Below, one piece after another: positions 2,375 through 4,645 of a stretch of 64,000 bases of DNA (position 1 is the first letter of the stretch; each line of letters opens with the position of its first letter). The stretch spans positions 2,706,217-2,770,216 of the forward strand of contig OX639992.1 in the NCBI GenBank assembly GCA_951828515.1. The letters run 5' to 3'. Source of the DNA: an uncultured Poribacteria bacterium (GTDB taxonomy: Bacteria > Poribacteria > WGA-4E > WGA-3G). The position numbers were made by a program, and so were the translations under genes. The notes under the pieces were generated by a model. That model did not search any database. It saw only the letters and a list, made by a program, of their open reading frames with translations, and was not told the origin of the DNA.

Positions 2375-3202
2375 ATGTACTACTTAACTCGGCAGACGGC
2401 GTTTGAAGCATCACATTACAATCGTATCCCTGAATTGAGCGATGCAGGGAACTTTGAGTTGTTTGGTGCCGCCGCAAATCCAAATAGCCACGGGCATAAC
2501 TATGTGCTTGAGGTAATGGTGAAAGGCAGTGTAGATGTAGATGATGGTATGGTCATCAATCTGGTGACTTTGGATGCGTTGTTGAAGAGCGAAGTGCTTG
2601 CCAATTACGATCACAAGCATTTAAACCATCAACATCCGATATTCGCAAAGAACTCTCATCTGCAACCGACGTGTGAGAACATCACCATAGAGATTTGGCA
2701 GCGGCTTGTCGCTTCTTTGCCCGAGGGAATGTTACACAGGGTGCGCCTCTACGAAAATGCGGCAAATTTTGCAGACTATTATGGGGAAGGACCTATGGTT
2801 TATCTTACTAAGGTCTACGAATTTAGTGCTGCCCACCGCTTGCACAGCCACGCGCTCAGTGACGAAGAAAACCAAGAGATCTTCGGAAAATGCAACAATC
2901 CGGCTGGGCATGGGCATAACTATATTCTTGAAGTTACCGTAAAGGGCGACGTAGATGCGAAAACCGGGTTGGTTGCGGGTTTGAACTTTCTTGACGAAGT
3001 CGTTCAAAAACAGGTGCATGCGCGTTTCGACTACAAACATCTAAATCTCGATACACCTGAATTTGAGATGCTCAATCCGACTTCGGAGAACTTCGTCAAA
3101 GTGATTTGGGACGTGTTAGAACCGAATTTGCGACCAGTGGTGCTGTACCGCCTTCGCTTGCGAGAGACACCCAAAAACCATTTCGACTACTACGGCGAGT
3201 AA
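2375..3202 (+). CDS. Fused double-domain 6-pyruvoyl-tetrahydropterin synthase/QueD-like protein
   Basis: 275 residues made of two PTPS domains (about 1-138 and 142-275); family members usually have one domain of 120-145 residues. Zinc ligands are kept in both: His14, His39 and His41, then His154, His179 and His181. The pterin-anchoring Glu of the P-T-x-E-N motif is also present in both (Glu101, Glu238). The catalytic residues are split. Domain 1 has Asp79-His80 but Ala33 where the Cys of G-K-C-N-N-P belongs; domain 2 has that Cys (Cys173) but Asp219-Tyr220 instead of Asp-His. In rat PTPS the Cys and the Asp-His pair come from neighbouring subunits, so a composite site is possible. The next gene, folE, makes the PTPS substrate dihydroneopterin triphosphate. 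Confidence 0.9.
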   Translation: MYYLTRQTAFEASHYNRIPELSDAGNFELFGAAANPNSHGHNYVLEVMVKGSVDVDDGMVINLVTLDALLKSEVLANYDHKHLNHQHPIFAKNSHLQPTCENITIEIWQRLVASLPEGMLHRVRLYENAANFADYYGEGPMVYLTKVYEFSAAHRLHSHALSDEENQEIFGKCNNPAGHGHNYILEVTVKGDVDAKTGLVAGLNFLDEVVQKQVHARFDYKHLNLDTPEFEMLNPTSENFVKVIWDVLEPNLRPVVLYRLRLRETPKNHFDYYGE

Positions 3203-3262: not shown

Positions 3263-3841
3263 ATGGAGTTTAATCAGGCGAATGTTACCCCTGAGTTAGA
3301 AGGGCTTTATACAAAAATCCTTCAAAACTTAGGTGAAGATCCGAGTCGTCAAGGCTTGGTGAAAACACCATACCGTGCCGCGAAAGCAATGGAATTCTTG
3401 ATGAGCGGCTATCATCAAAGTGTTGATGAAATTCTGAATGGAGCCATCTTTGATGAGGATTATGACGAAATGGTGATTGTGAAGGAGATTGAATTTTACA
3501 GTCTCTGTGAGCACCATATCCTTCCGTTTTGGGGTAAATGTCACGTTGGATATCTCCCACGGAAACAAATTGTGGGTTTGAGTAAGATTCCGCGTATTGT
3601 AGATATGTTTTCCCGTCGGTTGCAAGTTCAAGAACGTCTTACGCGCGAGATTGCCGAATCACTCGAAACCGCCCTTAACCCGCGGGGTGTCGCAGTCGTC
3701 ATGGAGGGACAGCACCTCTGCATGATGGCACGCGGTGTTGAAAAGCAAGCACCGGTAATGACAACGAATGTCATGCGCGGGACGTTTCGTGAGGATAGTT
3801 CAACGCGCGCCGAGTTTCTGAGGTGCATTCAAGTATCCTAA
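3263..3841 (+). CDS. folE: GTP cyclohydrolase I
   Basis: 192 residues from the ATG at 3263, preceded by GGAGG at 3244-3248; an in-frame TTG at 3242 lies before that site and is unlikely to be used. Zinc ligands are visible as Cys82 and His85 (S-L-C-E-H-H) and Cys153 (H-L-C-M-M-A-R-G-V). The length and the C-terminal T-T-N-V-M-R-G-x-F segment fit the homodecameric type I enzyme, which converts GTP to 7,8-dihydroneopterin triphosphate. It sits between the PTPS and a short-chain reductase, the enzyme order of tetrahydrobiopterin synthesis; folate or 7-deazaguanine synthesis are alternatives. Confidence 0.95.
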
Positions 3842-3870: not shown

Positions 3871-3892
3871 ACCCGCAAGGAACAATTAAAAA
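3871..3892 (+). repeat. Dispersed repeat core serving as ribosome-binding site
   Basis: A CCGCAAGGAACAATTAAAA-type segment lies directly before the ATG at 3893. It matches the end of the 85-bp repeat at about 2028-2047 and provides an AAGGAA Shine-Dalgarno sequence. Confidence 0.6.
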
Positions 3893-4645
3893 ATGGTTTC
3901 TCCAAGCCATCCCAATGGGACAGAAATAGGAAGACTCGACGGCAAGGTCGTAGTGGTTACCGGCGCGTCGAAAGGGATTGGTAAAGCAACCGCCTTCGCT
4001 TTCGCAGCAGCAGGCGCGAAGGTTGTGCTCGCTGCCCGAACACGTGAGACACTTGAACAGGTCGCAGTGGCGCTTAAAAAAAATGGTGCCCAAGCACTTG
4101 CTGTTCCAACAGACGTTACCAGCGTCGATGCTGTGAAGCAACTCATCCAACAGACATTAGATGTTTACCAACACGTGGATATTCTAATCAATAATGCAGG
4201 GATCGGTCATTTCGGACCCGTTGTTGATTTCGAGCCTGACGACTGGGATGCGGTACTCAATTCCAACTTAAAGGCTGTGTATCTCTGCGCAAAATATGCG
4301 CTTCCATCCATGTTGGAACAAGGCAGTGGACAGATTATTAATGTGCTTTCAGTCGCCGCGAAAGTGACTTTTCAAGCTTCAAGTGCGTATTGTGCCGCGA
4401 AAGCAGGAGCATTAGCACTGACAAAGGTCTTAGCCAGTGAAGTCCGTCAACAGAATATTCGAGTTACCGCTGTGTTACCCGGGTCAGTGCATACCCCATT
4501 TTGGGACGGCGTTCCAGAACACCCGGACTTTGAACAGATGTTAACACCGGAACATGTTGCTGATACGATTGTCTCTGTTTGTCAGCAACCACCGGGTATG
4601 GTGACTGAAGAAATTGTCGTAATGCCACCGCTTGGAATTCTCTAA
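3893..4645 (+). CDS. Short-chain dehydrogenase/reductase, candidate sepiapterin reductase
   Basis: A 250-residue classical SDR. The dinucleotide-binding motif T-G-A-S-K-G-I-G is at 23-30, N-N-A-G at 100-103 and the catalytic triad is Ser153, Tyr166 and Lys170. The basic A-A-R-T after beta-strand 2 suggests NADPH preference. The sequence alone also fits 3-oxoacyl-ACP reductase-like enzymes. Its place after PTPS and folE suggests a 6-pyruvoyl-tetrahydropterin or sepiapterin reductase completing tetrahydrobiopterin synthesis; that is inference. It lies 51 bases after folE and is convergent with the CBS protein gene that follows. Confidence 0.85.
   Translation: MVSPSHPNGTEIGRLDGKVVVVTGASKGIGKATAFAFAAAGAKVVLAARTRETLEQVAVALKKNGAQALAVPTDVTSVDAVKQLIQQTLDVYQHVDILINNAGIGHFGPVVDFEPDDWDAVLNSNLKAVYLCAKYALPSMLEQGSGQIINVLSVAAKVTFQASSAYCAAKAGALALTKVLASEVRQQNIRVTAVLPGSVHTPFWDGVPEHPDFEQMLTPEHVADTIVSVCQQPPGMVTEEIVVMPPLGIL

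Follow-up and report, generated by a model that had tools for sequence, protein, structure and literature searches.

A gene of an uncultured member of the Poribacteria, which are sponge-type bacteria, encodes a fused tandem PTPS whose two halves have lost different parts of the catalytic triad. The first half has no catalytic Cys and the second has Tyr in place of the catalytic His, so that neither is complete by itself. Throughout the homologues compared here the Asp-His of the first half and the Cys of the second are retained without exception, and the reciprocal combination of residues breaks repeatedly. The best explanation, which we consider probable, is a bimodular (pseudo-heteromeric) PTPS with one mixed working site and a reciprocal site in decay. 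The gene lies in a stretch of 64,000 nucleotides, the window, to which all coordinates given without a contig name refer.

A tandem PTPS gene with complementary residue losses

The following features were assigned to the gene:

2375..3202, + strand: fused tandem PTPS gene, 275 aa (translation; two PF01242 stretches)
2375..2794, + strand: half 1, residues 1-140, putative Asp-His donor without Cys (structure match, homologue conservation)
2414..2497, + strand: zinc-ligand span of half 1, with His14, His39 and His41 (alignment to rat PTPS)
2471..2473, + strand: Ala33 (GCC) at the position of the catalytic Cys, rat Cys42 (alignment to rat PTPS)
2609..2614, + strand: Asp79-His80, kept, rat Asp88-His89 (alignment to rat PTPS)
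2795..3199, + strand: half 2, residues 141-275, Zn/Cys/Glu lobe with the CxxxxxHGH motif of PTPS-II
2834..2917, + strand: zinc-ligand span of half 2, with His154, His179 and His181 (alignment to rat PTPS)
2891..2893, + strand: Cys173 (TGC), kept, rat Cys42 (alignment to rat PTPS)
3029..3034, + strand: Asp219-Tyr220, with Tyr replacing the catalytic His, rat His89 (alignment to rat PTPS)

The whole protein matches PF01242 in two stretches with a score of 195.6 bits (curated cut-off 22.4; E 2.9e-58). Both halves possess the three zinc histidines and the anchoring Glu that define a COG0720 domain, the latter being Glu127 in half 1 and Glu264 in half 2 by alignment to rat PTPS. A Cys together with Asp-His is not found within either single domain, and all three residues are present only across the whole chain. 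Because neither half has the full triad, the protein was classed as a PTPS variant and not as an ordinary PTPS. The residues and their numbering had been correctly given in a sequence-only reading of this DNA, as the alignment to rat PTPS demonstrates for Ala33, Asp79-His80, Cys173 and Tyr220; the zinc ligands and the Glu residues, too, are kept in both halves, as that reading stated.

The motif CxxxxxHGH, by which PTPS-II is defined (PMC5041015), occurs in half 2 only (C173NNPAGHGH), as half 1 lacks the Cys. The motif CxxxHGH of QueD (PTPS-I) is absent from the 275-aa protein, and searches of Pfam and NCBIfam gave no match of the protein to the QueF family. The source genome (5.85 Mb, one contig) contains no PTPS (COG0720) gene besides the fusion. 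A frameshift, an assembly error or a sequencing error as the cause of the residue pattern was ruled out by conservation: the reading frame is conserved in relatives at up to 93% identity and therefore does not reflect a sequencing error.

Conservation among poribacterial fusions

Within the order, most poribacterial genomes have the fusion, and it also occurs in family f7, which belongs to the same class; identities range from 41% to 93%. In the resulting set of 73 distinct fusions, the Cys position of half 1 is occupied by A, S, T, M, K, V or E in all 73 and by Cys in none. The Asp-His of half 1 and the Cys of half 2 are present in 73/73, and the Asp-His of half 1 is also invariant in an alignment of 46 sequences. 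At the His position of half 2 Tyr predominates (58/73), followed by His (13/73) and Phe (2/73). The 13 fusions that still have Asp-His in half 2 belong to families f2-f4 and to two f1 genomes. Thus, loss of Cys from half 1 is general across the fusion lineage and loss of His from half 2 is general only in parts of it. The zinc ligands are retained in 72-73 of the 73 fusions in half 1 and in 73/73 in half 2.

A few fusions show early loss of zinc or anchor residues in half 1: Gln replaces the first zinc His in L069, and Ser replaces the anchoring Glu in L072 and L077. One fusion (L104, genome G019) is split over two overlapping frames, by a frameshift, an assembly error or natural fission. Another (L102:3870-5438, genome G008) lies in an open frame of 523 aa, whose first ~240 residues precede the two PTPS domains, have no Pfam match and may be a non-coding extension.

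Unfused gene pairs in Acidobacteriota

A distant match, L082, consists of two adjacent PTPS genes that overlap by ATGA and are followed by folE. Of the 299 genomes in its class, 272 gave PTPS matches, commonly with two genes side by side and a third one elsewhere. Since the 16S sequences of four of these genomes, that of L082 among them, carry the acidobacterial 5′ signature, we infer that the pair-bearing genomes are Acidobacteriota.

We read 91 unfused adjacent pairs. All 91 first genes retain Asp-His, and 8 of them have lost Cys. All 91 second genes retain Cys; Asp or His is lost in 26, and one further gene was unreadable here. Both losses occurred in the pairs L197 and L122. The sequence-only reading had called the fusion obligate; the same complementarity in separate genes speaks against this, as do the 13 poribacterial fusions with an intact Asp-His in half 2. 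All three triad residues are intact in both genes of 58 of the 91 pairs. Such homologues had been named as evidence against a shared site, and to this extent the expectation was contradicted; because no homologue breaks the predicted diagonal, we read the 58 pairs as the putative ancestral state. The stand-alone third PTPS (QueD-type) of the same Acidobacteriota shows no loss of Cys, Asp, His or Glu (30/30 intact), and the triad positions are thus not generally lax. These stand-alone proteins (L227-L256) mostly show a CExxHGH motif; a combination of this type is known from PTPS-I/III hybrids that serve both queuosine and folate (PMC5041015).

In phylogenetic comparison half 1 groups with gene 1 of the Acidobacteriota (support 92, not starred), and it likely derives from the same duplication. 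For half 2 a grouping with gene 2 is compatible with the data (p-AU 0.63), and so is an independent duplication inside each phylum (p-AU 0.50 and 0.32). As judged from these sequences, the fusions and the acidobacterial genes likely go back to a common ancestral pair.

One-way decay of the triad

The 73 poribacterial fusions and the 91 acidobacterial adjacent pairs were combined into a set of 164 homologous pairs. Asp-His of the first half and Cys of the second half are each present in 164/164. The Cys of the first half is lost in 81 and replaced by ten different residues across the set; the Asp-His of the second half is altered in 86, and its His is replaced, depending on the lineage, by Y, F, Q, E, L, M, R, T or C. 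The suggestion that the losses in the two halves are complementary thus holds well beyond the single gene: the diagonal of Asp-His (half 1) and Cys (half 2) is unbroken and the other diagonal breaks repeatedly.

Because the pairs share ancestry, raw counts overstate their independence, and a count on a tree is the fairer figure. A quick tree was built from the 164 concatenated pairs after removal of the three columns in question, and the fewest changes were counted. At least 4 changes are needed for the Cys of the first half and 19 for the Asp-His of the second half, and none for the Asp-His of the first or the Cys of the second. The 23 changes thus inferred lie without exception on one diagonal (p 2.4e-7 under the null that both diagonals are equally open). 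For the acidobacterial pairs alone, 18 of 18 changes do so (p 8e-6). As the opposite events were never seen, the direction of decay holds regardless of the finer branching order. Together, the one-way pattern of the 164 pairs and the intact stand-alone control rule out chance.

The constraint on the two halves is reciprocal beyond the triad. Rat positions 24, 25, 41, 42, 47 and 134, which lie around the Zn/Cys lobe, are invariant in half 2 and variable in half 1; positions 15, 89 and 114 are invariant in half 1 and variable in half 2. Taken together, the conservation pattern strongly suggests that residues from different domains meet in one site.

A diverged copy on a phage contig

Genome G028 contains a second, diverged fusion of 250 aa, P0002, on a contig of 143.9 kb (C1). 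This contig encodes portal, major head, terminase and tail-fibre proteins and is a large tailed phage. Half 1 of P0002 has lost the three zinc histidines, the Cys and the TxEN loop and has kept Asp-His. Half 2 has kept Zn ligands, Cys and Glu and carries Arg-Asn in place of Asp-His. The predicted structure still shows two domains (pLDDT 84, pTM 0.70). By its residues, P0002 would be just the end point that a shared site predicts. P0002 has the QueD form of the Cys motif, CxxxHGH, and the phage also carries its own QueC and a QueE-like radical SAM gene.

A search of viral contigs gave no clear relative of the phage-type fusion, and a search of phage records gave weak partial matches only. The phage (L222:9047-9796, L223, L224, L257-L259) also encodes a class II ribonucleotide reductase, thymidylate synthase, RecJ, Hsp70, a sliding clamp and an NrS-1-type polymerase domain.

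Predicted structure and assembly

An AF2 model of the 275-aa fusion (pLDDT 95.5, pTM 0.90) contains two tandem T-fold domains in one chain, a bimodular architecture also recovered by VIA-align. Residues 1-138 match E. coli QueD (4ntn, Z 16.5) and residues 138-275 match rat PTPS (1gtq, Z 19.7, 43% identity). Over its whole length the model matches uricase (Z 13.4, ~225 residues, 4.1 A), and the modelled halves therefore look like ring neighbours. The linker from the last strand of half 1 to the first strand of half 2 has ~5 residues in the model.

The canonical PTPS assembly is a dimer of trimers with D3 symmetry. If the halves are ring neighbours, chains of two domains cannot fill the classical three-domain ring, which counts against the best explanation. 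Modelled as such neighbours, the fused enzyme would therefore have to form an even-numbered ring or a dimer that, as in V. cholerae QueF, has no central tunnel.

In rat PTPS, one chain reportedly contributes Cys42 and Glu133, and chain B contributes His89 (Nar 1994). With two chains per asymmetric unit, the Asp-His of rat PTPS would by this account reach in from the opposite trimer. In the open-access literature we found no paper stating which trimer supplies it. An intersubunit catalytic triad in rat PTPS is named in the title of Burgisser 1995, as cited in the reference list of PMC7546909.

Proposed mechanism and alternative readings

According to our proposal, the working site would combine the zinc ligands, Cys173 and the pterin-anchoring Glu264 of half 2 with Asp79-His80 from a half 1, which may be that of a different chain. 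The reciprocal site, with Ala33 and Asp219-Tyr220, has lost two of three triad residues and would mainly be a folded, metal-binding scaffold. In the putative ancestral state two adjacent symmetric PTPS genes would have formed a mixed oligomer with two types of site. Selection would have kept the type made of half 2 Zn/Cys/Glu and half 1 Asp-His, leaving the other dispensable and free to decay through loss of Cys from half 1 or of Asp-His from half 2. The Poribacteria would additionally have fused the two genes. Nevertheless, nearly all members conserve the zinc ligands and Glu of the site that is supposed to be dying; this exceeds the need of a pure scaffold and counts against the proposal. 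As these residues are kept so widely, the second site may still bind metal or pterin, and it was too strong to call the other interface dead, as the sequence-only reading did.

A narrower version of the mixed-site explanation, the one put forward in the sequence-only reading, has the complementary site formed by a single polypeptide alone, as is the case in V. cholerae QueF; it appears to us somewhat doubtful. In the AF2 model the halves are arranged as are the tandem T-fold domains of uricase, the short linker fits, and bimodular QueF has interdomain sites within the subunit (PMC5372742). However, the unfused pairs have the same pattern, and the reported arrangement in rat PTPS, with Asp-His from the other trimer, would be interchain. 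That the two halves instead hold two sites for two reactions seems improbable. Half 1, with Zn and Glu and without Cys, would then perform another step on a related pterin and half 2 would do PTPS chemistry without His. Such a division would agree with the retained Zn ligands and Glu of half 1 and with the Glu found at its Cys position in two f7 genomes, a change which in Plasmodium PTPS leads to 6-hydroxymethyl-dihydropterin (PMC2229834). Yet the ten different replacements of Cys look like drift and not like a new catalytic residue, the source genome has FolB for folate, and neither the invariance of half 1 Asp-His and half 2 Cys nor the phage half 1 without a Zn site is accounted for.

Least probable of all, and by a wide distance from what we prefer, is a half 1 that acts as a regulatory or structural pseudoenzyme, with Tyr220 or water replacing His in a homotypic site of half 2 and the complementarity being coincidental. 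The 13 fusions with a full Cys-Asp-His set in half 2 would be in line with this, but there is no single substitute for His across the lineages and no reason for an invariant half 1 Asp-His, least of all in the phage copy. The mixed working site remains our preferred explanation. It could be extended to a heteromeric PTPS lineage that runs from symmetric pairs through one-sided decay to fused and phage forms, with half 1 reduced to an Asp-His donor, one reciprocal site given up and a new ring or non-ring assembly of the fused form unlike the known hexamer; this larger scenario is in our judgement just as apt to be wrong as right.

Relation to known T-fold enzymes

The closest precedent by analogy for a T-fold active site divided over two fused domains would be bimodular QueF, the nitrile reductase of V. 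cholerae and E. coli, which like the fusion has ~280 aa and two tandem T-folds; its catalytic Cys and substrate Glu lie in one domain and its other essential motif in the second, giving one interdomain site (PMC5372742). It differs from the fusion in family and reaction. Furthermore, it is the PTPS Cys/Asp-His triad that is partitioned in the fusion, whose second site keeps its Zn ligands and which exists in an unfused, two-gene version.

Mammalian PTPS-II (rat 1gtq, human 3i2b) offers the closest solved structures and shares the Zn, Cys and Glu positions of half 2, but derives from one gene, with identical subunits that each hold a whole triad and six equal sites per hexamer (PMC7546909). E. 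coli QueD (PTPS-I) resembles half 1 in fold and Zn site; unlike the fusion it has the motif CxxxHGH, a single domain and complete site residues per subunit. Uricase and GTP cyclohydrolase IB also have two T-fold domains per chain (Z 13.4 and Z 11.3), with only 6-7% identity and other chemistry.

No description of tandem, paired or fused PTPS was found in the open-access literature searched. The many related genes, fused or side by side, that have decayed one way form a natural record of a symmetric enzyme turning lopsided, in effect many parallel evolutionary experiments in which a symmetric shared-site enzyme loses half its sites. Intermediates are still alive, with both sites intact, one residue lost, both lost or the zinc site lost. 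The long-standing claim that the PTPS triad is shared between subunits thereby becomes directly testable by genetics. Motif-based annotation will misjudge such genes, because one adjacent copy looks inactive.

Genomic context and probable product

Two pathway genes follow the fusion:

3263..3841, + strand: folE, GTP cyclohydrolase I, next gene after the fusion (PF01227, E 1.7e-73)
3893..4645, + strand: short-chain reductase, a sepiapterin-reductase-like SDR (PDB match 2bd0)

The FolE product, dihydroneopterin triphosphate, is the substrate of PTPS. Sepiapterin reductase 2bd0 is the second-best PDB match of the SDR (E 3.6e-42) and aligns nearly end to end. The order PTPS1-PTPS2-folE, often followed by the SDR, is common to both phyla. 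In the Poribacteria the SDR follows folE in the f1-f4 fusions where the sequence is long enough, and it adjoins the fusion in f7.

This synteny, a pterin-carbinolamine dehydratase in 73 of 85 poribacterial genomes and the PTPS-II motif of half 2 suggest a product of the biopterin type. Most likely the fusion would convert dihydroneopterin triphosphate to 6-pyruvoyl-tetrahydropterin for the neighbouring SDR. No biopterin-dependent aromatic amino acid hydroxylase was detected among the 85 poribacterial genomes, which speaks against a simple biopterin story. A role in folate bypass is unnecessary, as FolB is present in the source genome.

All 85 poribacterial genomes have QueC and 81 of the 85 have a QueE-like protein; TGT is present in the source genome. 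Since the fusion is the only COG0720 enzyme there, it may also serve as QueD and supply preQ0 synthesis. That its physiological role is that of QueD (6-carboxytetrahydropterin for preQ0/queuosine) and not biopterin synthesis is rather unlikely in our view. These queuosine genes argue for it, as do the QueD equivalog score, which exceeds the cut-off when both halves are added together, and the QueD motif of P0002 beside the phage's own QueC and QueE-like genes. Against it stand the PTPS-II motif of half 2, the neighbouring folE and SDR genes, and the separate QueD-type gene which the Acidobacteriota have besides the pair.

Directly upstream of the fusion lies an ORF of 97 aa (2048-2341, + strand) with no Pfam or NCBIfam match. 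It is preceded by a two-domain rhodanese gene (736-1584), an arrangement kept in families f1 and f3 only. Positions 1795-2047 consist of three head-to-tail units of 85 bp (98% matches), and the end of the unit reads AACCGCAAGGTATAATTAAAAA. A copy of AACCGCAAGGTATAATTAAAAA with one mismatch occurs at 3871-3892, just before the start of the SDR gene. This pattern is not expected by chance, and the repeat end is possibly a spreading translation-start element.
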